Positions 10,517 to 33,295 of a stretch of 64,000 bases of DNA are shown here, in pieces; within the stretch, counting starts at the first letter, position 1; the number at the start of each line of letters is the position of its first letter. Position numbers and translations under genes: made by a program. This DNA is from Spirochaetales bacterium (GTDB lineage: Bacteria; Spirochaetota; Spirochaetia; UBA9216). A model generated the notes under the pieces. The model did not search any database and had not been told where the DNA came from. It saw nothing but the letters and a program-made list of their open reading frames with translations. The stretch lies in the NCBI GenBank assembly GCA_016342585.1, contig JAEINK010000002.1:62001-126000 (forward strand), read 5' to 3'.

Positions 10517-13141
10517 ATGGGCATGCTTTTCTTCAAGAAAAAACCCGAAACCGATCCTGATGATTTTATTCAGGAGCGCTGGACTGCCAAATTCCGGAAA
10601 ATTGAATCACAAAGATTTGAGATAGAGGACGGAGATGGATATTCCTCAGCTTATGAGGGGGATGATTTCATTCTAAAACTTAAAAGGGCGAATCTATTTG
10701 GCTGGGCCGGAAATCCATGGTTTCAGTACCGGGATTTTAACCTGGAAGCTGATTGTTCCTTCGGGGCGGCTAATGGGTATTCGGCCATGGGATTCTGTTT
10801 TCGTCAGATAAACGATGCCAACTACTACTATTTTCTTGTTTCCAACCGAGGTTATTTTAGATTTGATCTTGTTTTTAATAATACTCCCCAGGTTTTGATC
10901 CCCTGGACCCGGTTTACCTCTTCTGAAAAGCCTGAAAACTCACGGGATATTCATCTGCGAATTGTTGCCCGGGAGAATCGTTTTATCTTTCTCATTGACG
11001 AGGAGTGGGTTGGTGAGGCTGATGATGACTCAATCTCTTCCGGTCGTTTTGCCTGGGCCGGTCAAAACTATGATGAAGCGGTTGAGGCTGATTTTATTCT
11101 TCACAGCCTAACCCTCGACTCCCGTCCTCTGGAGGTGGAAGCCTCCTATTACCGTTGGGGTGAGTATGTTCCGGTTGATCCCTCCTTAAGGTTCCGCCTT
11201 GCTGAGAGCCTTTTCCTGCTGGGGGCGTACTCTCCTACACTCATTCAGCTTAAAAAGATACGCCGAAATAAGGATTTCTCTTTTGAAGAGAATCTTTTAG
11301 CCGCCAAGTCATTCCTTGGCTCCGCCTTTTATGAGGAGGCCCTCTCATCGGCTGAAAAATGCCTGAAGACGGAACCCGATAATATTGAGGCTATTCAGGT
11401 GGCAGGTACGGCATTGTATACACTGAACAGACTCCTTTTATTGAAAGAGCTCCTGGAAGAGAAGGGGGAACTCCTGAAAGGGTTCTCCTGGTACTGGGGG
11501 CTGGCCGGGAATGGCGAGTATGGGCTGGGTAACTGGGATACCGCTGTGCACTTTTATAAAAAGGCAGTTGAGTTTTTTCCTGAAGAACCCCTTTTTATAG
11601 AAAATCTTGCCCGGGCGGTGGCGAAGTCCGGTGGACACACCCAAAGTACCTCTCCTGATGTGGTCTCTGATTCCCTCAGTGCAGCAGACGCCGTTGAAGA
11701 GGGCATAGTTTCAGAGGATACAGTCTCAAAGGACATAGTTTTAGATGAAATTCCTGAAAATGGGGCTGAGGGGGTTGCCGAGACGCCTGCTGAGTTTGAA
11801 CTTCTTTCATCCCTGGAAGAGGCGGCAAAGCTTTATTTCAGGCAGGAAGAGTATGGACAGGTTCAGAGCCTGATTGAAAGCATTTGCCGAATTGACCCTG
11901 CCAATCCAACAGCGGCTATCCTGAAGGGAAAACTCCTGTTTTTTGAAGAGAAATGGGATGCGGCCATGGAGGTTTTTGCTCCCCTGGCAGAGGCCGGTGA
12001 CACTGAAGATTCCAGCGTCTATTTCTTATATGGATTACTGCTGGGGTTTCATGATCTCCGGGAACTTGCCGGCCGATATCTTGAGAAAGCTGCTGAAATG
12101 GAACCGGAAAGTTTCATTTATCAGTTTAAAGCTGCCGAATCCCTTCACCTTCGGGGGGAGGATATGGGGCCCTACATCGAAAATGCCATGATTCTTGAGC
12201 CCGAAGATATCTGGGCTAATAACCTCGCCGGACTCGATGCTCAGGAGAAGGGGAGGACAGATGCCGCTCTTGAATACCTCAGTAAAGGGTGGACCCTTTA
12301 TCAGGCGAACCGTGGAACAGAATCCGAAGGATCCGGTGGTGTCGATCTTTTAATCAACTATTCTCAGGTTCTCTTCGATGCGGGACGGAGTGATGAAGCC
12401 CTGAAACTTCTTGAAGATCATCCGGAGTCTGAGGTTTTTAATCATAAGGGAAACCTCCTTTCTGCTCTGGGTGATTTTCCCGGAGCCGTTGATGCCTATG
12501 AGAAGGCTGTTGCGGGTGCTAAGGAGAATCGTGTTTATATTTTGAATTGTGCTACTGCCTGTATTGAGGCTGACTTTGTCCTTCGGGCTGAAGAGCTTCT
12601 CCAGTTATCTGGTGAACAGGATGCTGAGGTAATTAACCTTTTGGGAAATCTGGCCCGTATCAAAGGAGAGTTTGCCCGGGCGGAAGCCGCCTATCTGGAG
12701 GCGTTGAAAAGTGAGCCTGAAAACAAGGTCTTTCTTCTTAATCTTGCAGAACTTCTTCATCAGCGGGGGAATCATGCAGAGGCCCTTGCTCTAATTGAGA
12801 AAATCCCGGAGGATGCGAACACTCGCCGGGGTAAAAGGTTATATACGTCGGTTAAGAATGCCATGGAGCAGCATCTTGAATGTTCATCTTGTGGTCATGA
12901 GTGGATTCTTCCCCGGGATATTTCAGATCAGGGAGGCCTGAAACTGCATGGTGAGATCCCTGATGATGCCCCTGCCGGCAGGTGTCCCTCCTGTGGAAAG
13001 CTCTATTGCGTCTCGTGTGCCGGCCATCCAGATACGGATGGGCGTTTTATCTGCTCTGAATGTGATGAAAAACTTCTGATTAATGAGAAAAAAATATTGT
13101 ATATCCTACGGAAACGCTTGGGATTTTCTGCTGAAAAATAA
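10517..13141 (+). CDS. LamG-like/TPR/zinc-ribbon protein
   Basis: 874 residues, no signal peptide. Residues about 10-200 form a beta-rich module with ANGYSAMGFCFRQINDANYY, RGYFRF and EADFILHSLTL segments, reminiscent of concanavalin-like glycan-binding (3-keto-disaccharide hydrolase-type) domains. Residues about 210-790 are TPR repeats, split by an acidic Val/Ser-rich linker near 390-420. The C-terminus holds paired CxxC knuckles: CSSCGHEW, CPSCGKLYCVSC and ICSECDEKLL, probably binding two zinc ions. I do not know this combination by name. The start has a weak ribosome-binding site; an alternative ATG lies two codons later. It is cytoplasmic by lack of export signals; role unknown, perhaps a scaffold. 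Confidence 0.7.
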   Translation: MGMLFFKKKPETDPDDFIQERWTAKFRKIESQRFEIEDGDGYSSAYEGDDFILKLKRANLFGWAGNPWFQYRDFNLEADCSFGAANGYSAMGFCFRQINDANYYYFLVSNRGYFRFDLVFNNTPQVLIPWTRFTSSEKPENSRDIHLRIVARENRFIFLIDEEWVGEADDDSISSGRFAWAGQNYDEAVEADFILHSLTLDSRPLEVEASYYRWGEYVPVDPSLRFRLAESLFLLGAYSPTLIQLKKIRRNKDFSFEENLLAAKSFLGSAFYEEALSSAEKCLKTEPDNIEAIQVAGTALYTLNRLLLLKELLEEKGELLKGFSWYWGLAGNGEYGLGNWDTAVHFYKKAVEFFPEEPLFIENLARAVAKSGGHTQSTSPDVVSDSLSAADAVEEGIVSEDTVSKDIVLDEIPENGAEGVAETPAEFELLSSLEEAAKLYFRQEEYGQVQSLIESICRIDPANPTAAILKGKLLFFEEKWDAAMEVFAPLAEAGDTEDSSVYFLYGLLLGFHDLRELAGRYLEKAAEMEPESFIYQFKAAESLHLRGEDMGPYIENAMILEPEDIWANNLAGLDAQEKGRTDAALEYLSKGWTLYQANRGTESEGSGGVDLLINYSQVLFDAGRSDEALKLLEDHPESEVFNHKGNLLSALGDFPGAVDAYEKAVAGAKENRVYILNCATACIEADFVLRAEELLQLSGEQDAEVINLLGNLARIKGEFARAEAAYLEALKSEPENKVFLLNLAELLHQRGNHAEALALIEKIPEDANTRRGKRLYTSVKNAMEQHLECSSCGHEWILPRDISDQGGLKLHGEIPDDAPAGRCPSCGKLYCVSCAGHPDTDGRFICSECDEKLLINEKKILYILRKRLGFSAEK

Positions 13142-19241: not shown

Positions 19242-20381
19242 TCAATATGAATATCCGGCCCCCACTGTGATAGACATCCCAGCCTGATTTTCCGGGTTGA
19301 ATATATCTGCCGATTCTCCGGTCTGGAAAGAGTAGTATCCGAAAAGATTCAGTTCTTCATAGATATTCCAACTGACACCCGCGGTTGTATTAGCCGAGAT
19401 ATCGATGGGTGAAATAATCGAACTGACTGTGAATACAGTAGTACTTCCCGGGATGAAACTGATCGAAGGGTAGAGGTAGAGACCATACTCTTCTGTTTCA
19501 TCGGCCTCCGCATTGTACTCTTCAAATTGAGCTGATGGTTTTAATAGAAATTCGAGTTGCCAGGATAGGGTTTTATCCCCTGTGTACCCAAGCATGTGGT
19601 CCCAGGAGGCTCCTCCGGTAATCTTGAGGCTCTCCTCCATCGAAGTGGTAGAAAAACCATTTAACTCAATTGTGGTCGAGGCGGAAAGGTGCCAGTTTAT
19701 CGGCATAATTCCTTCAAGGCTGATATAAGCCCGCTGTCCTGCGGTACCCAGGCCGGCAATGGCACTTCCTCTGTATAGGTAGCCAGCCTGAAGATTAAAG
19801 TCTCCTGCCTCGAAACTTACCCTCCCTCCGGCGGAACCATCACCGATCTTTGGAAGGACCGGTTCGGCTGGATCTGATAGATCAATACTTCCCGGGAGGA
19901 GGATTATCTCTAAAAAAGAGAAGTCTCCCAGAGGGAAATCGGCACCGGTTAGCCAGGCTGTTTCCGATCTTGGATCATTGGATCTTGTATCGAAACTGAT
20001 CGAATCTGATCCGAAGATGATATCCCCCGCATTGAAGGCAAATCCTGCTCCCCAGGTGGTTCTTGTTTTTCCCAGGAGTATGCGTACGTCACCGAAGTAG
20101 GGGCGGACATAGAGTTTTTTCAACCCCGGGAGCATTTGTCCTCCTGCTTCGCTGATATCCAGGGCGACCTCGCCTTTCACCTCCCTTGAGCCGGTGCTCC
20201 TGAATGAGAGGCCGGCTTTTCCATACATTATATAGCTCCACTCCTTTTCGATGCCGTTGAGGCTGTAGAGGCTGTTGTAGAACTCTGTGTCTGCCGAAAT
20301 CCTGATTTCTGCCGTTAGCATCGCGGTAGCTATAAGTGAGAAGAGCGAAAATAATACTGTTTTTAAAAAAAGTCTGTTCAT
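19242..20381 (-). CDS. Outer-membrane beta-barrel protein of the ABC export operon
   Basis: 379 residues with a signal peptide (cleavage near TAEIR), amphipathic beta strands throughout and a C-terminal aromatic strand (TVGAGYSY). It contains LGKTRTTWGAGFAFNAGD, strikingly like the LKKVEWGKGDGIHVID stretch of the barrel in the RND operon, so the two may be distant relatives. It is the last gene of the five-gene ABC operon, starting four bases after the permease stop. Inferred to be the outer-membrane partner of that exporter; strand count and function are not established. Confidence 0.7.
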   Translation of the reverse strand: MNRLFLKTVLFSLFSLIATAMLTAEIRISADTEFYNSLYSLNGIEKEWSYIMYGKAGLSFRSTGSREVKGEVALDISEAGGQMLPGLKKLYVRPYFGDVRILLGKTRTTWGAGFAFNAGDIIFGSDSISFDTRSNDPRSETAWLTGADFPLGDFSFLEIILLPGSIDLSDPAEPVLPKIGDGSAGGRVSFEAGDFNLQAGYLYRGSAIAGLGTAGQRAYISLEGIMPINWHLSASTTIELNGFSTTSMEESLKITGGASWDHMLGYTGDKTLSWQLEFLLKPSAQFEEYNAEADETEEYGLYLYPSISFIPGSTTVFTVSSIISPIDISANTTAGVSWNIYEELNLFGYYSFQTGESADIFNPENQAGMSITVGAGYSY

Positions 20382-20385
20382 ATGA

Positions 20386-21654
20386 TCAGTCCATCCTCAG
20401 ATTGTCCGGTATATCTTTTTTAAGCATCCGATGCGTAGGAAAATAGGCGGCTAAAGAGCTTACAATGATGGCTAAAACTCCTCCGGTAAGAAAGGATTTC
20501 GGTGACCAGACTCCTTTCATATGAGAATCAATCACTATGTTTCCAAAATTAATAAAATCATCTGTTACATTCATCATTGCCCCATAATTGAGTCCATGAT
20601 TAACCATAAAAATATTTAAAAGAGCTCCGAGAATAAGACCCGCAAGCGTACCGACAATCCCTATTCCACCCGCCTCCAGGAAAAACATGAGTTGAATTGT
20701 CCTGTCTGTTACTCCCTGGGCCCTGAGCATCCCGATCTCTCTTCGGCGTTCAAAAATAGCCATCATCATTGTGTTGGAGATTCCAACTGCTGCTATCAGA
20801 AAAATCAGGAACAGAAAGAGGGTGACAAAACTGTCTTCCATCTCCTGCATGGCCATGAAATCCGACGCTATCTCTTCATACCCCAGAAGTTCGTACTCAT
20901 CGGGGAGTTTTTCTTTTAACTCTTCCAGCCTGACTATGCCGCTTCTCCCGGCGGGAACCTTGATCGAGTAGCTCGTGACAGAGCCATCCATCTCAAGGTA
21001 GTAGTCTGCTGCATCTATGGCAAGGAATACACCTTTTATATTTATCAGGTGATTCTCTGTTTTAATGATGCCGATCACTTTTGTACTCAGCACCTCCTGA
21101 TACCCCATTTTCCCCGAGAATTGGAGTCTCACCGGATATCCGATTTCGATCCCAAGCTTGTTTGCCAGAACATTCCCCACTATAATCCCGTCATCTCCCT
21201 CTTTCAGGAATTCACCCCGGCTGTATTCATTGTTTATGGAATCAGCCAGCTTAAAGATATCGCCGTCTCTTACCGGATCCACTGCGGTTATCCTTGTGGG
21301 ATAAACCCCGTCCTCGGGGAAGGGATCCTTATAGAAGACAAGATCCGCCAAAAATTCCGTTCTGGGAGTATATTCAATTTCCAGTTCATCAAGGAGAGCG
21401 GTTATCGATTCTGTATCCTCAATTGATTGACTTAAAGGGAGCCTCTCTTTTTCAGTCCACCAGCTCTTCTTTACTATCTTTCCTGAGGCCACTTCGTAAT
21501 CCATATACTGTTGATAGGTTTTTCCATACCATCCTTCCAGGAGAGAATCCATGAAGATGTAGAATATGAGGCCAATAGCAATGGCAACGGCGGTTATCAG
21601 GGTTCTTTTCTTATATCGCAGCAGGTTTTTTACAGCCATTTTCAAAATAAGCAT
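20386..21654 (-). CDS. FtsX-type ABC permease (second subunit)
   Basis: 422 residues with the MacB/LolC-E layout. One TM is at residues 18-38, then a periplasmic domain of about 220 residues, then three TM segments near 275-295, 325-350 and 385-405. ISNTMMMAIFERRREIGMLRA is the conserved FtsX cytoplasmic segment that touches the ATPase. It pairs with the other FtsX permease of the operon, giving a LolCE-like heterodimer. Separated from the LolA-like gene by 11 bases. Likely moves lipoproteins or lipids out of the inner membrane; cargo unknown. Confidence 0.87.
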   Translation of the reverse strand: MLILKMAVKNLLRYKKRTLITAVAIAIGLIFYIFMDSLLEGWYGKTYQQYMDYEVASGKIVKKSWWTEKERLPLSQSIEDTESITALLDELEIEYTPRTEFLADLVFYKDPFPEDGVYPTRITAVDPVRDGDIFKLADSINNEYSRGEFLKEGDDGIIVGNVLANKLGIEIGYPVRLQFSGKMGYQEVLSTKVIGIIKTENHLINIKGVFLAIDAADYYLEMDGSVTSYSIKVPAGRSGIVRLEELKEKLPDEYELLGYEEIASDFMAMQEMEDSFVTLFLFLIFLIAAVGISNTMMMAIFERRREIGMLRAQGVTDRTIQLMFFLEAGGIGIVGTLAGLILGALLNIFMVNHGLNYGAMMNVTDDFINFGNIVIDSHMKGVWSPKSFLTGGVLAIIVSSLAAYFPTHRMLKKDIPDNLRMD

Positions 21655-21665
21655 GGTTTCCTCCT

Positions 21666-22394
21666 TTATCTGGTTAATTCCCTTCTGGTGAATTTACTAT
21701 CAGGGATCGGAATATTCAGTTCGACTTTATCGATGAAGATTTCCGAACTGACTCCCCGTCGGACATCATCTGTCAGGATGATATCCGTGGCCATTAAGTG
21801 CCCATTAAACTCATCGACCTGTCGGATTACCATTGTCTTCAAAGGCTGGTTACTTCTGGTGAACATTTCTATCCTACGCATTATGAAGGTCTCTTTTTCG
21901 ATCCACACTATCTGAACCGGATAGGCGACCCTCTTCCTTCTTTTTACCTTCATGGCGATCCTGTAGCAGAGTATACCTTCCAGGTTTTCCTCCCCTTCGA
22001 GGGTCACATCGTAATTCTCCAGCATCCCGGATTCGTCGGTCACATCTTCATAGGAAATCAGCCCTGCAATCGAATCTCCCTTGCTCTTGGTAAAGATTGC
22101 CTCTGAATCCGGAAAAAAGTGGTATATCCGGTCTTCTGTCCTGAGGATCTTTTGTCCGTACTCTGCATCACTGGTAAATTCCATCAGGAAGTTGGTTCCC
22201 TCAGACCAGGCTGAATAGGCAATGGTTTTTGTGCCGAATCTGTCGGTGTTCACCATTCTTGATTCGGTGTAGGCACTTTCGTAATTCATCATTTCATCCG
22301 TTCGTGCAACTATCTCCTCGGCAGATTGGGCTGTCACTGTCTGGAAAGCGGCTATAAGGATAATTGATAGTATTAATATGATAGTTCTTTTCAT
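21666..22394 (-). CDS. LolA-like outer-membrane lipoprotein-sorting protein
   Basis: 242 residues: signal peptide (to about VTAQS) and the LolA-fold domain of COG2834, with the family-type helix AEEIVARTDEMM, strands YHFFPDSEAIF and VAYPVQIVWIEKETFIMRRIE, and a C-terminal VELNIPIPDSKFTRREL. The tail parallels that of the LolA-like protein at 3246-4016 (VKYNIPI...FTTNFL). It sits between the two FtsX permeases in the operon, which suggests it takes cargo from them across the periplasm. Cargo unknown. Confidence 0.82.
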   Translation of the reverse strand: MKRTIILILSIILIAAFQTVTAQSAEEIVARTDEMMNYESAYTESRMVNTDRFGTKTIAYSAWSEGTNFLMEFTSDAEYGQKILRTEDRIYHFFPDSEAIFTKSKGDSIAGLISYEDVTDESGMLENYDVTLEGEENLEGILCYRIAMKVKRRKRVAYPVQIVWIEKETFIMRRIEMFTRSNQPLKTMVIRQVDEFNGHLMATDIILTDDVRRGVSSEIFIDKVELNIPIPDSKFTRRELTR

Positions 22395-22406: not shown

Positions 22407-23666
22407 TTATGTTGATCTAATGGCTTCAACCGGTTCGATTGTTGCCGCCTTTCTGCAGGGAATAAGTGTTACCATGGCGGAAATTATGATCGTATAGATG
22501 GTCATTAAAATCACATGATATGCTTTAAGGTCCGGGTATATTATATTGGAGACCTCCATATCCATCGATCCCATGGCTGAGGAGAAATCGAGTCCTGTTT
22601 TTTCTGCCGCAAGGATGATGATGACTCCCAGGCTTACTCCAATAACTGCGCTTATTATTCCGGCAAAGAGTGATTCCAGGAAGAAGAGTCTAACCAGATC
22701 ATTGGGTGGCATCCCCATGGCTCCCAGAATCCCTATCTCCCTGTATCTTTCATAAATCACCATCATTGTTGTATTAATGATTACAGTGGCTCCCATAAGG
22801 AGGAAGAATATTATCATAAAGTTATACGTGATTTCGGCGATACCCATCATTCCATAGAAATCACCCTGATCCTTCCAAAGGGCGGTATCCAGATAATTTA
22901 AACTGCTGTCTGCCGAAAGGATTTTATCTATATTTGCCAACTGAATTTCCGCTGTCTCCGGATCTTCGGTCATTATAATGATTTCCTGAGCACCCCCTTT
23001 CATCTGCATCAGGTCCTGCATTACATCAAAGGGTAGAATGAAGTGGGTGTTGTTCATACTTCCCATGGGGAAATCGACAATCCCTGTAATCTCGAGGGTC
23101 ATGGCATTTACCCCGCGGGATGCTGTGGCAGTCATAAACGAAAATTTATCTCCAGGACCAAGGCCCGTTTTTTCAGCCAGTTTATACCCAATGATGGTTT
23201 CTCTCCGCCCTTTCAGGGGAAGCCTTCCCCCTATCAGAAGTGAACCGGGATCAAGTATGTTTTTTTCCTCATCGATATTTATACCCATTCCCACGGCGAT
23301 ATACTCCTCCCCCGGTTCATCATCCAGGGGGGTATCATCAATATAGATTTTACCTCCGGCAGTGGTTCTCCCCAGTGCCTGGCTTACTCCCTCTATTTTT
23401 AACAGCTCCCTTCGGACTTCCTTTTCATTTTCTACATAGAGATGGACAGGGTTCAGATAATCATATTTTCCATAATCCCTGTGACGGATCTGAATGGCAC
23501 CGGTATAGTAAGCCAGAATATTTCTTTTCATATCGGTTTTCATCCCTGTAACAAGGGCTAACATGAAAATCCCCAGAATACAGGCCAGCACAATCGTTGA
23601 AATGGAGAGGACCGTTCGTTTTTTGTTTCTGGCAAGGTTCCTGAAGGCAATTGTTGATAACCTCAT
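22407..23666 (-). CDS. FtsX-type ABC permease (first subunit)
   Basis: 419 residues from the ATG at 23666, one base after the ATPase stop; a further upstream in-frame codon would run into the ATPase gene. Layout as in LolC/E: MRLSTIAFRNLARNKKRTVLS, TM near 20-42, a large periplasmic domain, then TM segments near 270-290, 320-345 and 385-408. INTTMMVIYERYREIGILGAM is the FtsX contact segment. Forms the exporter with the other FtsX permease and the ATPase. Confidence 0.87.
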   Translation of the reverse strand: MRLSTIAFRNLARNKKRTVLSISTIVLACILGIFMLALVTGMKTDMKRNILAYYTGAIQIRHRDYGKYDYLNPVHLYVENEKEVRRELLKIEGVSQALGRTTAGGKIYIDDTPLDDEPGEEYIAVGMGINIDEEKNILDPGSLLIGGRLPLKGRRETIIGYKLAEKTGLGPGDKFSFMTATASRGVNAMTLEITGIVDFPMGSMNNTHFILPFDVMQDLMQMKGGAQEIIIMTEDPETAEIQLANIDKILSADSSLNYLDTALWKDQGDFYGMMGIAEITYNFMIIFFLLMGATVIINTTMMVIYERYREIGILGAMGMPPNDLVRLFFLESLFAGIISAVIGVSLGVIIILAAEKTGLDFSSAMGSMDMEVSNIIYPDLKAYHVILMTIYTIIISAMVTLIPCRKAATIEPVEAIRST

Positions 23667-23667
23667 A

Positions 23668-24354
23668 TTACGCCCCCTCTTTGACCGTATCTTCGGTAAC
23701 AAGACCATCGTGAAGAAGGACAAGCCGCCTGGCGTAATCCATAACCATCCTGTCGTGGGTCGAAAAAATAAAAGTGGTCTGGTGTTTTTCGTTCATCTCT
23801 TTCATCAGTTTGAGTATATCTTCCCCGGTATGAGAGTCCAGGTTCGCGGTAGGTTCATCGGCCAGGATAATCTTCGGATTCTTGATAAGAGCCCTGGCAA
23901 TCGCCACCCTCTGTTGCTGCCCTCCCGAGAGGCGTGAAGGCCTTCTGTCCTCCATCCCTTCAAGACCTACCTCTCTCAGGAGGGCCAGGGTCTTCTCTTT
24001 GACCTCTTTCTTGTTTTTGTTGATAAGAGAGAGGGCGAAGGATACATTTTCAAAGGCGGAGAGGACAGGGATCAAATTGTAGCTCTGGAAAATAAACCCC
24101 AGTTCATTTCTTCTGAATGCCGCCTTTTCGAGTTTGGACAGATCACCCACATTCTGCCCCTCAATGGAAACTTTTCCTCCATCCAGTTTATCGATGCATC
24201 CAATGATATTCAGGAGGGTCGTCTTTCCCGAGCCTGAGGGGCCGGCAATGGAGATGAACTCTCCCTTCTTAATCAAAAGATCTACACCCCGGAGGGCTTC
24301 GACTTTTAAATCTCCCGCAATGTATGTGCGCTTAACGTTTTCAACATTGATCAT
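23668..24354 (-). CDS. LolD/MacB-type ABC transporter ATP-binding protein
   Basis: 228 residues. Walker [13 protein letters not shown], signature [16 protein letters not shown], Walker [14 protein letters not shown]-loop STHD. The [22 protein letters not shown]-loop segment is typical of the LolD/MacB group. First gene of a five-gene operon (ATPase, FtsX, LolA-like, FtsX, barrel), with a strong promoter and operator immediately upstream. Powers cargo extraction from the inner membrane. I avoid naming it lolD because the operon could handle a specialised cargo. Confidence 0.92.
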
Positions 24355-24425
24355 AATTCTCTCCTATAAGGTTAGGATAATCGATCTCTTCCTTCATATG
24401 TATTTTTCTTTTGTAACTATGTTTT

Positions 24426-24454
24426 ATTGTACTAATAGAATAGTACAATGTCAA
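24426..24454 (-). promoter_or_regulatory. Promoter with built-in operator for the ABC export operon
   Basis: On the minus strand TTGACA (24449-24454) is followed by exactly 17 bases and TACAAT (24426-24431). The perfect inverted repeat ATTGTACTA-6-TAGTACAAT (24426-24449) fills the spacer and covers the -10. A dimeric repressor bound here would block polymerase. No TetR-, MarR- or PadR-like gene is nearby. Confidence 0.8.
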
Positions 24455-24461
24455 GTTTTAT

Positions 24462-24510
24462 AAAATCTGTAGATTTTAAACTGAATAAGAATTATATTAT
24501 AATCCTTATT
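24462..24510. promoter_or_regulatory. Two further palindromes before the 195-residue hypothetical gene
   Basis: TAAAATCT-gt-AGATTTTA lies at 24461-24478, and AATAAGAATTATA-t-TATAATCCTTATT (one mismatch in 13 pairs) at 24484-24510. The second contains TATAAT (24498-24503) at the position expected for a -10 of the plus-strand gene, so it may be its operator. Confidence 0.45.
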
Positions 24511-24521
24511 AGGGAGGAACA

Positions 24522-25109
24522 ATGGATATATTAAGCTCTTTGACGACCTGGTTGATGGTTGTATTACTGCAGGTAGCCCCTGTTCAGGATATGAATGTTG
24601 GCGACACTTTAAGTTATAAAAACATTGAATATGATATGGGGATCGAATTTGAACTGACCGAAGTCCCTGCTGAAGATTACTGGATTGTCGCCGGCCGTTT
24701 TTTTACTCCTGAGGATAGGACAATCCTTGCTGAATATGAAGCAGCAGGATATTTTGATGATTTTCTGAATCAACTCTTTTATTTAAAAGAGGGGGAAGAT
24801 GATTCTGCTTTTTACCATTTTTCAGTGAATGAAGCGGGCTTTCCCCTTCCACTGAGCATCTCTCTTGGTGAAGATTCGGAATTATATGTGAATGGTGGTT
24901 ACAGCATGCCTTTCATCGATGCTGATACCTTTGAATTCATGGGTGGAGAGGATGAGACATATCACTATTCCGACGGTGATCTGGATGTTTATATTACAAG
25001 TAAAACCTATTCAAACAGCAAGGCTTCAGAATTGTCTGCCATTACCATAAATTATGAGATGGCTGGTATACATGGAAAATTCTTCCAGGTTCCCGGGGGA
25101 CTGGAGTAG
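24522..25109 (+). CDS. Hypothetical protein, 195 residues
   Basis: Not recognised. It starts at an ATG behind a strong AGGGAGG site. Residues 5-20 (SSLTTWLMVVLLQVAP) are hydrophobic and could be a signal peptide or anchor; the rest is acidic and beta-rich with many aromatic residues (EDYWIVAGRFF, GEDETYHYSDGDLDVYI), which fits an exported protein. It diverges from the ABC export operon and the shared 168-base gap is full of palindromes, so the two may be co-regulated. No catalytic motif seen. Confidence 0.55.
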   Translation: MDILSSLTTWLMVVLLQVAPVQDMNVGDTLSYKNIEYDMGIEFELTEVPAEDYWIVAGRFFTPEDRTILAEYEAAGYFDDFLNQLFYLKEGEDDSAFYHFSVNEAGFPLPLSISLGEDSELYVNGGYSMPFIDADTFEFMGGEDETYHYSDGDLDVYITSKTYSNSKASELSAITINYEMAGIHGKFFQVPGGLE

Positions 25110-25149
25110 GGGAAGAGAAGAGGAATAATCTCTGAATTTGAGGAAGAGG

Positions 25150-25626
25150 TCAGTTCAGCAGGATAAAGCAGGATTTTAATTCTGAATACACCTTTTCCAG
25201 CCTTTCCAGATTGTGCGGAAATGTGTAGATAAACATGGATTTCATGGCTTTAATTGTGCGGGCCTCTTCATTATTGACAAAGGCCGGACGAAATCCGGAG
25301 ACTCCCATCAGATCTCTCAGGAAAGGTTGTATGTACCGTTTCGTAAAATCCAGAAAGAAGGCAAGGCTTTCAAGGCCATTGTGAATGGTGGAGAGATCCT
25401 CCAGGGATACATCGGGGTGAGCGGCCATCAACCTTAGATCCCGCAGGGCAGAAGCGTCGAAGGCTGTCTTATCAAGAACTGAATTAAACCATCCCGTATC
25501 GAAATTGTTTTCGAATACATCCTTGAATTCCTCGAGGGTTCCCCGTAACTCCTGGACGACCAGGGGGTTGTATGGGGTTCGTACTAATGTTCCGGTATAG
25601 GCTGTCTGATACATTAATAACATCAT
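25150..25626 (-). CDS. Hypothetical protein, 158 residues
   Basis: Not recognised. Mostly helical, soluble-looking, with segments VVQELRGTLEEFKDVFENNF, ALRDLRLMAAHPDVSLEDLS and FLDFTKRYIQPFLRDLMG. No signal peptide. The start (ATGATG) has no clear ribosome-binding site, so the real start could be elsewhere or the gene could be 5'-truncated. It lies 27 bases downstream of the AlaX gene on the same strand and could be co-transcribed with it. Its length and helical pattern recall small four-helix signalling-associated domains, but nothing specific supports that. Confidence 0.45.
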   Translation of the reverse strand: MMLLMYQTAYTGTLVRTPYNPLVVQELRGTLEEFKDVFENNFDTGWFNSVLDKTAFDASALRDLRLMAAHPDVSLEDLSTIHNGLESLAFFLDFTKRYIQPFLRDLMGVSGFRPAFVNNEEARTIKAMKSMFIYTFPHNLERLEKVYSELKSCFILLN

Positions 25627-25653
25627 CGGTATTAGACCGCCATAATCTTTAAT

Positions 25654-26880
25654 TTATAAGAAGAAGTTCTTCCAGGCCGATAAAAACGCTGCCTCTTCAT
25701 GAAGGGTGAGTCCGCCTCCCTGCCACAGGGGGGCTCTTCCTCCACCCCGGACCTTCAATGGATTAAGAAGTGTTTCTCTTATCCGGTTGAAATCAAGTTC
25801 AACTCCCTTTCCATGGCCGATAATCCATTGAATTGAATCCTCACCCCTGTTCAGGATACAAAACCGGATTTTATCATATTCACTTAACGCCAGACCGAGA
25901 TTTCGGAATCCATCCTTATCCATACCATCTAAGACCTCCGAGGCAACAGGGGCTTCGTCAGTCAGTGTTAATTTTCGATAGATGCCTTCAGCCTGAAAGC
26001 CGGCCATCTTTAAACCCATCTCTTTAAGGGTCTGATCCTTTTTAACCGACTCCTCGGTTAATTTCCGGACTCCCTCCTCTATCTTTTCCAGAGGAACCGA
26101 AAGTTTTTTTGAAAGCTCAGACGTAATATCCGTTTTTTGCCGGTAATCCAGGAGGGTCCGCTTTCCTATCTTCCAGAAGGTACGCATATTTCCCCGGATC
26201 TTTGCGGTCGCTGTCAGTTTGATAAAGCCCGTTTGACCTGTAGTGGAGAGGTGGATCCCGCCGCAGGCCACCGTATCGATCCCGTCAATCTCAACGATTC
26301 TTATGTTTTCCTTCTGCTTGGCGGGGCGTCGTAGTTTAAACTCCTCAAGTCCCTCCTCGTCTGTCCAGTGAGTCTTTATTTCCTTATTTTCACACACAAT
26401 CTCATTGGCTCTCTCTTCAGCCCTGAATAAAAACTCATCATCTATGCCGGGGGTTGCGAACTCAATAGTTGTGTAATCTTCTCCCTGATGAACCGAGACG
26501 GTGGCATATTCCCCTAACGCCATGAAAACCGCCGAGAGGATATGCTGACCCGTATGCTGCTGCTGATAATCCAGGCGATGGTCGGCATCCACTTTGCCTT
26601 CAACTTCATCTCCCGGGGTGAGGGACTCGATGGTGAGATTTTCACCAGTCAGATAGTGCCAAATCTCACCCTCATCTTTTTTTACATGGACTACAGAGAA
26701 GTTTCCCAGAGTGCCTAGATCAGCAGGCTGCCCCCCGCCTTCCGGGTAGAAGGCCGTCTTATCAAGCTGAACACGGATTTTTCCCGGATACTTTTTATCG
26801 GAAACTTGTTCAATATTTATTATATTCGCCTTGAAAGAAAGGAGGGCATTGTCGTTGTAATAGAGGGGTTCTGTCTTCAT
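25654..26880 (-). CDS. Alanyl-tRNA editing protein AlaX, long form
   Basis: 408 residues, the size of AlaX-L. The N-terminal barrel shows VQLDKTAFYPEGGGQPAD. The editing (SAD) domain carries the zinc motif HTGQH (HxxxH) and CGGIH (CxxxH). The C-terminal DHHA1-type part contains GGGRAPLWQGGG and LHEEAAFL. It hydrolyses mischarged Ser- or Gly-tRNA(Ala) free in the cytoplasm, without a synthetase domain. Upstream of the 158-residue hypothetical gene; start ATG at 26880 has no obvious strong ribosome-binding site. Confidence 0.9.
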   Translation of the reverse strand: MKTEPLYYNDNALLSFKANIINIEQVSDKKYPGKIRVQLDKTAFYPEGGGQPADLGTLGNFSVVHVKKDEGEIWHYLTGENLTIESLTPGDEVEGKVDADHRLDYQQQHTGQHILSAVFMALGEYATVSVHQGEDYTTIEFATPGIDDEFLFRAEERANEIVCENKEIKTHWTDEEGLEEFKLRRPAKQKENIRIVEIDGIDTVACGGIHLSTTGQTGFIKLTATAKIRGNMRTFWKIGKRTLLDYRQKTDITSELSKKLSVPLEKIEEGVRKLTEESVKKDQTLKEMGLKMAGFQAEGIYRKLTLTDEAPVASEVLDGMDKDGFRNLGLALSEYDKIRFCILNRGEDSIQWIIGHGKGVELDFNRIRETLLNPLKVRGGGRAPLWQGGGLTLHEEAAFLSAWKNFFL

Positions 26881-29023: not shown

Positions 29024-32000
29024 TTACCCTTTCATTTCTGCAGTGGCGAATTTAAGATATGGGGTTAAAAGATCATTTTTCGATGCTCCTGTTCCGTCAT
29101 AGGTCAGGGAAACCATGGGGATCCCTGTCAGCTCTTCAATTTTACTTCCCATAGCTTCGGTGACCAGGGAGGGGCAGCAGAAGGCCGGATTAGCCTGAAC
29201 CAGGAGATTTATATCCGGGTGTTCATTCATAAGGTGGATAATTTTAAGGAGGTTTTCCTTGGATTCTCCCTCCTGTTCCATTTTTATGGAATAGGTTTCA
29301 AGGGCCCTGGCTGTTGATCCGCTTTGCCGGGTAAATGGTTTTCCAAGCATTTCATCGAATGGTTTGTGGAGCCCCTTTTCCAGAAGTTCCATGACCGCCA
29401 GCAGGCCTTTGAATTTAAGATAATCTCCATATTTTTTCTGTTTTCGCCATTTATCAAAGTAGGTTCCTGCTATGATTTTCACATAATCATTGTAGGGAGT
29501 TATGATGGCCTCCCCGCCATTTTTTTCTATGAATCTGACCAGATCCTGGTTTATGACTGGATTATCCCTCGTATATAGATCGCCGAAAATCGCTACCTTT
29601 GGTTTACGGGCAGGCTCTATCTCCACATTATCGAAGAGCATCTTTATCTTTTTTGAAGCATCCAGATAACCGGAATCCTTCTCGAACGCTTCTATAAGGA
29701 TCTTTCCGGCTATTTCGATCTGCTGATCGGTGCTTCCTTTTATGGTTTCATAGGGGCGCAGTGCACATCCCACCTTACGAAGAATTCCCGAAAGGAGGTA
29801 GGCGACATAGGCCTTAATGCTCATTTGGGGTGAGAACTCGATGTAGGAGATTTCCCCCCAGTATACATTGGCCTTCTCCATGCCTTCCGCTTCCAGAAGG
29901 CTCTTTATATAGTAGGGGTAGAGGTGGATATTACAGGCCCATTGGCATTTGCTCATCCACAGGGCTGTCTTTTCGGGTGCCAGTCCCTCATTCCTGATGA
30001 CATTCATATACTCCTGGGCAATAACATTCACAGGAATACACTGGCCGGTATTCATTGTCATACTCGCACGAATCGCCTCATCTGTCTCATCAAGTACCCG
30101 GGTCCTGTATCCCAGGCCGTTCAGGGCGGCTGCGATTAAGGGGATGGCCATGGGATCCCAATTGGGCAGGAAGATGGTTTTATCGGTTAGATCCCTGATT
30201 AATTTCGGTGAATATAGATTCCTGCCCCATCCCCCCGGGACAGATAAATCGGCTTCCCGGTTATGATGGTTTCTAAAAGCTCTGACTCCGGCTTCTATCC
30301 GTGTTTCATAACCAACCGAGGAGTCGTGATCATCCAGCTGGAGGATCAGATAGGGTTTTTCGTATCGGTTCATGATCCTCTGGTAATATTCAATGAGAAA
30401 TGAATCAGGGCCGCATTTAAAGGATGTAACCAATATCGGGTACAGTCCCGGGGTTCTGGCGCATTGGAGGGTTGTCCTTAATATTCGGGCGGCATAATTC
30501 CAATGGAAGGCCGATAGAAGATCCCCAATCTCATTCTCTTCATACTCTGCCGGCGGAATCTGATCCATGGCGAGGGATTCGATATTCAGATCGGCGATTA
30601 TCTCCGGAATATGACTGTTGAGTTTTTTATCAAGAATTGTATAGGGGCGGCCCAGAATACCAATTCGGATATCCTTTTTGAACTCAGTTGATTGCTCATC
30701 CTTTATATCAAAGTGTGATAAAAGCTCCACCTTGTATATGTCATAGAGCTTCTTCGCCTTTTGGTAGGCTTTTTGAACCTCCTGAAGCGAGTATCTCCTT
30801 CTCATTTGTTTATTAAGATGAATGTAAAGTTCCTGTACTGTTTTTTGATCATTCTGATTATTCATCACAACAGGCGTCATAACCCCGGCCCGATCTTCAA
30901 GATCCCGGATCATAAGGGCCAGGGTCGGCGCAAACTGGGTGTAGTAGCAGTACTTTCTTACCCTTTCAGATCTATTTGATCCGGGAGCTGAACTCCTCTC
31001 CTGTTCGAGGTAGTGGGGGAGGAATATTGTATCACTGATATCTGCCAGATAATCCACATGGCCATAGAGTGCATGAATCGGAGAACAGAACTCGGCTCCT
31101 GCCAGGGCCTTACCACGCTTTATCGGATTTTCAAGATCCCGGCTTGTAATAACCGGGATCTCAAGTTCTTCGAAAAATGTTTTCCAAAGGTGAAGTTCCT
31201 CTGATAATTGAAGCGCCAGGGGGATACCGACAATCTTTTCCTTGGTTCTCTGTTTTCCCCTGTCTGGAAATATATCCTTAATGACCTCATCTCTCTCTTC
31301 AAGAAGAGACCTCTTTTTCTTAAGTTTAACAAACTTTTTCGTCTGATAATCCCTGCCGCAGAGGAATCCAAAGGCACATGTTTCTCCATTTATTTCGGCA
31401 ATTCGAAGCCGGCAGTGATTGCCGCAGAGGTTGCATTGCTCTTTCCTTACCGGTATTTCTTCTCTGAAAAGCCCCTTTCCCCGGAATTTACTTTCTGATT
31501 TTATCTCTTCCCTGACGGTGAGCGCCACACCCATGGCGCCTGTTAAATGGCAGTAGGGGGAGACATGAATGGGTTTTTTCAGTTTTTCCTCAAATGCGGC
31601 AACCAGCGCTTTGTTTTTTGCCGTAGCTCCCTGAAAACAGATCTTTTCCCCTATATTGCCAGTGGAGGCCACTTTCTGAAGATAGTTCTCTCTCACCGAA
31701 TGGAGGACCGCCGCCAGGATTTCTTCAACCTTATAGCCCCTGTTCAGGTAGTGGTTTAAATCCCTCTCCATGAACACGGTACATCGATCACTCGCCCTGG
31801 GTGCTTTGGCCTTCATCGCCATTTCGGCATAATCGGAGAGTTGAACACCCAATTGCTGAGCCTGTTCTTCTATAAAACTTCCGGTTCCTGCGGCACATAC
31901 CGTATTCATCTGTGAAAAGGTGACCATCCCCTTATTCATGGTGGTGAATTTGCTATCCTGACCGCCAATTTCGATGATAGTATCGATTCCGGGGTCCAGC

Positions 32001-33295
32001 TCGTAGGCGGCTCTGGCGTGGGCGCTTATCTCATCCAGAATTATATCGGCGCCCATCAGGCTGCCCAGAAACTTTCTTCCAGAACCTGTCGATCCTGCCC
32101 CTGTTATCTGAAAAACGATATCCTCCCGCTCTTCCATATCGTGGATTGTTTCGAGGATTCCCCTGAAGGCCGCTAAGGGTTGCCCCTGGGTTCGGGTGTA
32201 AAAGCCGGCCACCATTTTTCCGTTTATATCGAGGAGGGCTGCCTTCGTGGATGTTGAGCCTATATCAAGCCCGAAATAAACCTTGAAATTTTTGCGGTCA
32301 GCCTGTTCCGGCCGGCTATAGAGATCTGTCTCTACTCCCGGACATCTATCGACGATTTCAGGTTGAAAAGTGTAATGAAGGATTCCCTTAAAATCCGGAT
32401 AGAAAGATTGTTTTAGTATTAGGGGAGGGAAGTGGTACTGCCTCTCAGATGGTTCTCCTGCCATTAGTTCGGGGAGATCCGAAATCATAAGTTCTGCTAT
32501 CTCATCTGTGGTAGTTCCTTTTACCCATTCATTTTTTGATAGAAGCGCTGCTCCTAATGCTCCACAAACCTCTGGGTGGGGATGGATGAGCATTTTTTCC
32601 CCTAAAAGAGTTTCAAGGCTGCGGGCGACAGCCCCATTCAGGGCGACGCCACCTGAAAAGACCAGGGGTGAATTGAAATCATTATCGGGAAAGAGGGTTT
32701 CACCCAGGTTTTCCGCCACACCTTTACAAAGTCCTGCGCATATTTCCTCCCGGGTATAACCCTCCTGCTGGGAGTGAATCAGATCTGTTTTGGCAAATAC
32801 CGAGCATCTGCTGGCAATTTTGGGTGGATTCTCCGGGTTTTCAAGGGCCAGCCGGCTAAGTTCTGAACTGTCGTTCAAACCCAATCTTCTTGCCTGCTGA
32901 TCGAGGAAGCCCCCGGTTCCCGCTGCACAGGAGGTATTCGCTCTTGTTCTCCGGTAATCGCCCGCCGGTGAAAAAAGCGTCAGTGAGAACTTTTCTCCTC
33001 CGACATTCATGAGGGAGCCCATCTCCGGGAAGAATTTTTTTGCTCCGGTTATCGTGCATACCTGAGGATCAAAGTGTTTTATTTTTTCTGATTTATTCTC
33101 TTCGGCCGAAGCCGATCCCGCCCCGGTGATGGTGTAACCTTTCCAGCTCGAAAGGAGTTTTTCAAGTTCGGCCATGGTTTTACCATTGTGAAATCCATAT
33201 CGTGAGTCAATAAGATTTCCATTCGCGTCAACCAAAGCCATACTGATCGATACCGACCCGATATCAATTCCTAAGAAGAGCGGGGAAGGGGACAT
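29024..33295 (-). CDS. Large acyl-CoA dehydratase activase (BadF/HgdC type)
   Basis: 1423 residues. Two ASKHA ATPase domains in tandem (about 1-270 and 335-600), each starting with a LGIDIGS-like phosphate loop and each with a Fe-S cysteine motif, NTSCAAGTGGF and NTVCAAGTGSF, plus a second conserved Cys (ASRCSVF; SDRCTVF). Then come a CNLCGNHCRLRI cysteine cluster, a DUF2229-like part, and a C-terminal part related to 2-hydroxyglutaryl-CoA dehydratase subunits (COG3580/3581; GPDSFLIEYY, WDPMAIPLI). Small activases drive ATP-dependent electron transfer to hydroxyacyl-CoA dehydratases. This fused version is widespread in anaerobes but its substrate is unknown. No separate dehydratase subunits are adjacent. 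Confidence 0.88.
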   Translation of the reverse strand: MSPSPLFLGIDIGSVSISMALVDANGNLIDSRYGFHNGKTMAELEKLLSSWKGYTITGAGSASAEENKSEKIKHFDPQVCTITGAKKFFPEMGSLMNVGGEKFSLTLFSPAGDYRRTRANTSCAAGTGGFLDQQARRLGLNDSSELSRLALENPENPPKIASRCSVFAKTDLIHSQQEGYTREEICAGLCKGVAENLGETLFPDNDFNSPLVFSGGVALNGAVARSLETLLGEKMLIHPHPEVCGALGAALLSKNEWVKGTTTDEIAELMISDLPELMAGEPSERQYHFPPLILKQSFYPDFKGILHYTFQPEIVDRCPGVETDLYSRPEQADRKNFKVYFGLDIGSTSTKAALLDINGKMVAGFYTRTQGQPLAAFRGILETIHDMEEREDIVFQITGAGSTGSGRKFLGSLMGADIILDEISAHARAAYELDPGIDTIIEIGGQDSKFTTMNKGMVTFSQMNTVCAAGTGSFIEEQAQQLGVQLSDYAEMAMKAKAPRASDRCTVFMERDLNHYLNRGYKVEEILAAVLHSVRENYLQKVASTGNIGEKICFQGATAKNKALVAAFEEKLKKPIHVSPYCHLTGAMGVALTVREEIKSESKFRGKGLFREEIPVRKEQCNLCGNHCRLRIAEINGETCAFGFLCGRDYQTKKFVKLKKKRSLLEERDEVIKDIFPDRGKQRTKEKIVGIPLALQLSEELHLWKTFFEELEIPVITSRDLENPIKRGKALAGAEFCSPIHALYGHVDYLADISDTIFLPHYLEQERSSAPGSNRSERVRKYCYYTQFAPTLALMIRDLEDRAGVMTPVVMNNQNDQKTVQELYIHLNKQMRRRYSLQEVQKAYQKAKKLYDIYKVELLSHFDIKDEQSTEFKKDIRIGILGRPYTILDKKLNSHIPEIIADLNIESLAMDQIPPAEYEENEIGDLLSAFHWNYAARILRTTLQCARTPGLYPILVTSFKCGPDSFLIEYYQRIMNRYEKPYLILQLDDHDSSVGYETRIEAGVRAFRNHHNREADLSVPGGWGRNLYSPKLIRDLTDKTIFLPNWDPMAIPLIAAALNGLGYRTRVLDETDEAIRASMTMNTGQCIPVNVIAQEYMNVIRNEGLAPEKTALWMSKCQWACNIHLYPYYIKSLLEAEGMEKANVYWGEISYIEFSPQMSIKAYVAYLLSGILRKVGCALRPYETIKGSTDQQIEIAGKILIEAFEKDSGYLDASKKIKMLFDNVEIEPARKPKVAIFGDLYTRDNPVINQDLVRFIEKNGGEAIITPYNDYVKIIAGTYFDKWRKQKKYGDYLKFKGLLAVMELLEKGLHKPFDEMLGKPFTRQSGSTARALETYSIKMEQEGESKENLLKIIHLMNEHPDINLLVQANPAFCCPSLVTEAMGSKIEELTGIPMVSLTYDGTGASKNDLLTPYLKFATAEMKG

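Follow-up and report, generated by a model that had tools for sequence, protein, structure and literature searches.

A perfect 9-6-9 inverted repeat in the promoter of an uncharacterised envelope transporter operon is, as far as comparison of genomes can tell, very probably (at about 0.83 by our estimate) the operator of a GntR-family repressor of the YtrA subfamily that would act in trans, from a gene on a different contig (C104) of the same draft genome. The operon lies in the window, by which we mean the whole stretch of 64,000 nucleotides that was analysed, and its features are collected in Table 1. A first-pass annotation of this DNA had looked to a distant regulator, and the ytrA gene on the other contig makes that likely; the families it had in mind (TetR, MarR or PadR) are not supported, as the regulator found is a GntR/YtrA protein.

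Table 1. Features of the window operon, the divergent gene and the intergenic region between them
Feature	Position	Strand	Basis
Predicted outer-membrane beta-barrel, last gene of the operon	19242..20381	-	Structure model and homology to the barrel of the ytrA operon
FtsX/MacB_PCD permease b	20386..21654	-	Pfam FtsX 5.1e-22
LolA_like periplasmic protein (PF17131)	21666..22394	-	Pfam 7.9e-36
FtsX/MacB_PCD permease a (LolC/E-like), start codon uncertain	22407..23723	-	FtsX 3.4e-17, MacB_PCD 1.1e-9
LolD/MacB-like ABC ATPase, first gene of the operon	23668..24354	-	Pfam ABC_tran 3.7e-34
-10 hexamer TACAAT, ABC operon promoter	24426..24431	-	Made by operator half-site
Candidate YtrA-type operator ATTGTACTA-N6-TAGTACAAT, A flank class	24426..24449	-	9-6-9 repeat
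9-6-9 inverted repeat, perfect	24426-24434/24441-24449		Inverted-repeat scan
-35 hexamer TTGACA, ABC operon promoter	24449..24454	-	Promoter scan
8-2-8 repeat, perfect	24461-24468/24471-24478 (24461..24478)	.	Chance-level for an AT-rich stretch
13-1-13 repeat, 92% complementary	24484-24496/24498-24510	+	Overlaps the divergent gene's -10
Divergent orphan gene, 195 aa, possible signal peptide (by eye)	24522..25109	+	

The window operon, presumably transcribed as a single unit, brings together an ATPase, two permeases, a LolA-like protein and a predicted barrel, a combination that suggests the movement of lipids or lipoproteins between membranes. Its ATPase falls short of the NCBIfam LolD equivalog cut-off (225 of 308 bits), as its permeases do of the LolC/E cut-off (104 and 94 of 362 bits), and the barrel has no Pfam match at 0.01; the structure model of the barrel has an N-terminal helix and 18 strands of at least three residues (mean pLDDT 75). 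The divergent gene has no Pfam or NCBIfam match at 0.01 and no relative at 1e-4 among the 247 other genomes sampled from the class; as a candidate member of the regulon it was set aside, because with no relative in those genomes it offers no comparative test. Elsewhere in the window (29024-33295) lies a 1423-aa protein that by eye resembles a BcrAD/BadFG-type (CoA-activase) ATPase with two activase-like halves.

The three palindromes of the first-pass annotation (9-6-9, 8-2-8 and 13-1-13) are all recovered at its positions by an inverted-repeat scan, and the near-consensus promoter that it had assigned to the ABC operon is borne out as TTGACA-17-TACAAT on the minus strand, with 11 of 12 consensus bases. 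The 9-6-9 repeat had been said to fill the 17-base spacer of this promoter; it does cover the whole spacer, but it also takes in the last base of the -35 hexamer and the entire -10 hexamer. The 13-1-13 repeat indeed overlaps the TATAAT of the divergent gene, which stands at 24498-24503 inside the repeat and belongs to a plus-strand promoter, TTTAAA-17-TATAAT (10/12). Promoter-like matches alone mean little, because the four such sites found by the scan of positions 23800-25000 are near the shuffle mean of 2.5 (standard deviation 1.5). A search for RNA elements with Rfam across 23000-26000 gave no match at the gathering score.

We assessed the repeats against 2000 dinucleotide shuffles of the 167-bp intergenic region (25% GC), allowing loops of 0-10; the shapes of the repeats were picked post hoc, and the shuffle figures are therefore lenient. 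At least one perfect 9-bp arm appeared in 66 of the 2000 shuffles and a 13-bp arm with no more than a single mismatch, the rarer of the two, in 10, while perfect 8-bp arms occurred at a mean of 0.124 per shuffle, so that the 8-2-8 repeat by itself does not stand out. Across the 64 kb of the window there are seven 8-2-8 repeats, three 13-1-13 repeats with one mismatch or none, and 22 listed places with perfect 9-bp arms. Because shuffling makes the 9-6-9 repeat only mildly unlikely, the case for it rests on comparison. The 13-1-13 repeat has no second copy in the 5.0-Mb genome at three or fewer mismatches and was rejected, as a single-copy element, as the site of a genome-wide regulator; it is a possible separate operator for the divergent gene.

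The 9-6-9 pattern was searched across the genome of origin (5.0 Mb in 127 contigs) at up to three mismatches in 18 positions, together with a reversed control, and gave four sites against none for the control. All four are upstream of ABC-system genes. The best second copy, with one mismatch in 18, is directly upstream of a 133-aa ytrA gene on C104, so the regulator's own gene carries the same motif as the window; the C92 site precedes a YtrB-like ATPase-permease-YtrA operon, and the C2 site a Yip1-TolC-HlyD-MacB run. A YtrA gene stands in the same gene run at two of the sites (C104 and C92) and at neither of the other two (the window and C2). Looking near the palindrome's copies for TetR, MarR or PadR genes, as had been suggested, we found transporter, metabolic and GntR/YtrA genes as neighbours of the four sites (judged by eye, with Pfam on some). 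The window sequence TGTACTA-N6-TAGTACA has the GT-N14-AC placed far from the centre that is expected of YtrA operators. We discounted a fifth, core-like match at C105:42246 as chance; it falls within a reading frame.

Contamination of the draft bin is put at 5.35%, and the regulator and its proposed target are on different contigs. In tetranucleotide make-up, stretches of the three other site contigs correlate with the window at 0.935 (C104), 0.947 and 0.960, against a range of 0.45-0.90 for stretches of four other genomes; this closeness supports, and does not prove, an origin in one organism.

By its sequence and its structure model, the C104 regulator is a GntR-family protein of the YtrA subfamily, a group with a reduced C-terminal domain (PMC4494728). 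It is 133 aa long, and its residues 22-84 match PF00392 (GntR; 2e-15, above the curated cut-off), which makes its N-terminal domain a GntR winged helix-turn-helix. Two C-terminal helices (93-111 and 118-132) follow this domain in the model (mean pLDDT 76), a reduced two-helix domain of about 50 residues of the kind reported for the subfamily. The best structure matches from sequence and fold searches were 4ham, 3by6, 3neu, 4r1h, 6sbs and 2du9, of which 6sbs is the YtrA of Sulfolobus acidocaldarius; whole-chain rmsd in these matches is about 5-9, and the placing of the two domains relative to one another is therefore unsure.

On C104 the gene order is ytrA-SPFH-lolD-ftsX-ftsX-lolA-barrel, all reading the same way and closely spaced or overlapping, and the regulator gene probably shares an operon with the ABC transporter genes. 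The last five of these parts recur in a different order in the window operon, which has neither a regulator nor an SPFH gene. Identity between the two operons is 71.6% for the ATPase, 40% and 39% for the permeases, 37% for the LolA-like protein and 35% for the barrel, and on this sequence comparison the C104 operon is a paralog of the window operon. The better preservation of LolD than of the permeases (in this genome, 72% versus 39-40% from one operon to the other; in genome G165, 65% versus 38-39%) was considered as proof that the ATPase is shared and was rejected, because plain orthologs show a similar contrast (65-75% versus 43-52%).

Across relatives the sites divide into two flank classes, A (C104-type) and B (C92-type), which have a 14-base core in common and differ in their outer flanks (AT..AT in A, AG..CT in B). 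At orthologs of the A regulator, scanned over the 250 bp before the regulator start and the first 30 bp after it, the core is present with at least 12 of 14 bases at 70 of 75 loci, the genome of origin included (76 loci were given, and L208 was dropped because it has no upstream sequence; with L208 counted, the upstream reading left out 14 of the 89 genomes with a regulator ortholog). At orthologs of the C92-type ATPase, for which 30 of the 88 YtrB genomes were read upstream, the same threshold is reached at 23 of 30 loci, again with the genome of origin included, or at 24 of 30 if stretches that start slightly further out are admitted; the flank counts below use the 23. The reversed pattern reaches at most 11 of 14 bases in the same upstream stretches, and letter shuffles of the C104-type stretches reached 12 of 14 in only 3 of 1500 cases.

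The bases immediately outside the core separate the classes. Position -1 is T in 63 of 70 A sites versus none of 23 B sites, position +1 is A in 59 of 70 versus none of 23, and the T..A pair occurs in 55 A sites and no B site; conversely, the G..C pair is found at 22 of the 23 B sites and 1 of the 70 A sites. Exceptions in the A class are the 7 sites without T and the 11 without A, and in genome G023 the site at an A-type regulator is flanked much as in class B. The window site, flanked by T and A, falls in class A, and the C2 site, flanked by G and C, in class B, which marks a second pair of ABC operons (C92 and C2). These counts bear on the best-surviving alternative, namely that the window site belongs to the C92 YtrA paralog or is shared by both proteins without discrimination. 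Such sharing would suit the common core, the HTH stretch NPNT that both paralogs have, and a weak separation by co-occurrence (the C92-type ATPase occurs in 40 of the 60 genomes with an A site, and the C104-type regulator in 24 of the 32 with a B site), but the flanks split the classes almost completely, with the window on the T..A side, and we consider it unlikely. Rather, the C92 YtrA would be kept to its own sites by the bases just outside the core, with discrimination presumably exerted at the level of the protein.

We then scored a class sample of 248 genomes with the A- and B-extended patterns at no more than one mismatch, together with reversed controls. The A pattern was found in 60 genomes and the B pattern in 32, with none for either control; G191 was matched by both patterns, and 4 of the 32 B-site genomes are without a C92-type ATPase at 1e-60. 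The C104-type regulator is present in 58 of the 60 A-site genomes versus 89 of 248 overall, an association that is partly built in, because the regulator gene is itself where most A sites are found. The bare 14-base core, at no more than one mismatch, gave 38 forward versus 17 reversed sites (summed over 41 genomes, the genome of origin and 40 relatives) and alone is weak evidence.

By our own count the A-extended search comprises 68 sites in the 60 genomes, and 17 of them, in 16 genomes, are away from the start of a C104-type ytrA gene (judged by eye); the C104-type regulator is encoded in 14 of the 16. Exporter-type genes adjoin 12 of the 17 (the window, L293, L294, L295, L297, L300, L301, L302, L304, L305, L092 and L069), three are some 45 bases or less from the end of a contig (L298, L303 and L068), and at two (L296 and L299) no transporter was seen. 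A weaker YtrA-like frame (35-37% identity) lies beyond the exporter genes at L301 and L302, and the sites there may answer to that protein.

Several of these loci have arrangements of their own. At L301 (G207:C648), L302 (G124:C117) and L092 (G040:C20) the A operator stands before large MMPL-type exporter genes (called by Pfam for L301 and by eye for the other two), which at L301 and L302 are followed by LolA-like genes. At L305 (G111:C14, 4983-6230) and L306 (G150:C122, 850-3468), extra copies of permease b lie directly upstream of ytrA, one of them preceded by a second operator core.

The first-pass annotation had staked its reading on conservation of the palindrome upstream of orthologous operons, and here the outcome is divided: the palindrome is absent in G165 and G005, and perfect in G120, G101 and G129. 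Close orthologs of the window operon occur in three genomes, G165, G080 and G005 (60-64% identity in permease a). The G080 contig begins inside lolD, and its upstream region is thus not readable; before the G165 and G005 operons, both of the readable close orthologs, the operator was not found at two or fewer mismatches in 14. The site at the ytrA gene of G165 is itself poor (best 11/14), and the G005 operon has no lolD, with the ytrA end of that genome's other operon off the contig read. G120, G101 and G129, which belong to another family, each have a second FtsX operon that has no YtrA gene and carries an 18/18 site; these operons were found through the site search and so give no rate. The site-bearing operon of G129 is also without an ATPase gene.

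In a tree of both permeases the G120, G101 and G129 proteins group with the window clade (support 100/99 and 100/95). We extended the permease a tree by 46 sequences, made up of 26 of the 30 loci of the permease a search and 20 further places drawn from more than 130 listed; the window clade stayed at seven members (support 99/92) and gained no further site-less member, and none of the 20 further places had an A site in the roughly 3 kb read upstream where the contig allowed. The site is thus present in four of the six readable operons of the window clade, a count biased by the sister operons having been found through the site, and it was either lost twice or gained more than once.

Two window-type FtsX operons, L294 (G129:C12, site at 10938) and L127 (G005:C397, 6544-7803), are without a LolD of their own. 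The ATPase of the ytrA operon may serve them too, and co-control may in this way allow orphan permease pairs to share it.

The absence of the site from the two closest readable orthologs, and an AT-rich region in which 66 of 2000 shuffles produce a perfect 9-bp arm, are what might be expected if the 9-6-9 repeat were a chance likeness or a remnant with no binding protein, left for example by duplication of the ytrA promoter. This we regard as very improbable, because the window site matches at 18/18, better than the 17/18 of ytrA's own site, differs from the latter in covering the -10 instead of following it, and recurs in three sister operons. G165 also offers the one observation that favours a distant TetR, MarR or PadR repressor, since upstream of its orthologous operon lies a TetR-type regulator split over two overlapping frames (L125, G165:C96, 8650-9200), possibly a broken gene or a sequencing error; yet the operon that bears these frames is without the palindrome, and across the class the palindrome goes with YtrA genes, leaving a repressor of those families with very little likelihood.

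Equally slight are the prospects of joint action by all three palindromes, through one regulator, on both divergent promoters: they do lie within 85 bp, but they have no half-site in common (by eye), the 13-1-13 repeat is not found again in the genome, and divergent regulation is described as very rare for YtrA-subfamily regulators (PMC4494728). Nor do we find support for the two-way control that the first-pass annotation had favoured: besides this rarity, the 9-6-9 site stops 25 bp short of the divergent -35, and the gene on that side is an orphan.

The class-wide association with YtrA and the overlap with the promoter agree with the earlier proposal that the 9-6-9 repeat is an operator acting on the ABC operon promoter, here as a prediction from sequence. 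In the YtrA reading, a dimer at 24426-24449 would cover the spacer and the -10 and would deny RNA polymerase access to the promoter of the LolD-FtsX-LolA-FtsX-barrel operon; the same protein would repress its own ytrA-SPFH-lolD-ftsX-ftsX-lolA-barrel operon, and an envelope signal that inactivates YtrA would release both envelope transporters together. Binding, repression, co-induction and the signal are all steps that we infer. Among promoters scoring at least 9/12, the -10 starts 11 bases upstream of the core in 48 of 62 of the C104 type and 19 of 20 of the C92 type, and the operator would therefore cover the start site. The window layout differs in that the operator contains the -10, an arrangement shared by 5 of the 62 scored C104-type promoters, which have TTGACA, and by G120, G129 and G101, whose -35 hexamers are weaker. 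Either position fits simple steric repression.

A broader picture, which we hold tentatively and regard as rather doubtful for now, is that spirochaetes have two insulated YtrA regulons built on one shared core, with the outer bases choosing the repressor and each repressor repeatedly recruiting extra envelope exporters in trans (LolD-FtsX paralogs, ATPase-less permease pairs such as that of G129, and MMPL exporters with LolA-like proteins).

Control by YtrA of its own operon and one distant membrane-protein operon is already known from Bacillus subtilis (PMC8060467) and S. acidocaldarius (PMC6746942). In B. subtilis the site AGTGTA-13-TACACT stands before ytrGABCDEF and a second operon, ywoBCD (PMC8060467), and the YtrA operons respond to cell-wall antibiotics (PMC12772383). 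The system described here resembles it in having a YtrA-subfamily repressor, a long AGTGTA-N-TACACT palindrome, and its own ABC operon together with one distant membrane-protein operon as targets; the C92-type site, AGTGTA-12-TACACT, is one spacing base away from that of B. subtilis. It differs in its spacing of 12 rather than 13 bp, in the window flanks (AT/AT versus AG/CT), and in that the distant target is a paralog of the regulator's own operon, Lol/MacB-like and with an outer-membrane barrel. YtrASa of S. acidocaldarius is likewise a small GntR protein with two C-terminal helices that represses its own operon and, at a distance, one membrane-protein locus; it differs in being archaeal and in its 14-bp core motif with flanking half-sites over the start site (PMC6746942). 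PmtR of Staphylococcus aureus is also a YtrA-type repressor at the promoter of an ABC exporter operon, whereas its gene heads the operon under its control and the available account describes no distant paralogous target (PMC5080381). The YtrA groups of Suvorova et al. 2015 (PMC4494728) have in common with our sites long palindromes with GT/AC far from the centre, mostly as single sites before ABC operons; they differ in that most of their regulons consist of one operon, and the table of that study is without spirochaetes.

To this the present analysis adds a spirochaete case (a literature search of open-licence papers found none for YtrA), a paralogous target and the flank split. An uncharacterised envelope transporter operon gains a proposed regulator, and the outline of a regulon emerges across the spirochaete class, which lies outside the comparative YtrA motif study as represented by its table (PMC4494728). 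The two repressor paralogs, possibly avoiding cross-talk through the flanks of their operators, offer a natural test case, and the shared control of Lol/MacB-like transporters, if it holds, would be a lead to what these transporters respond to.
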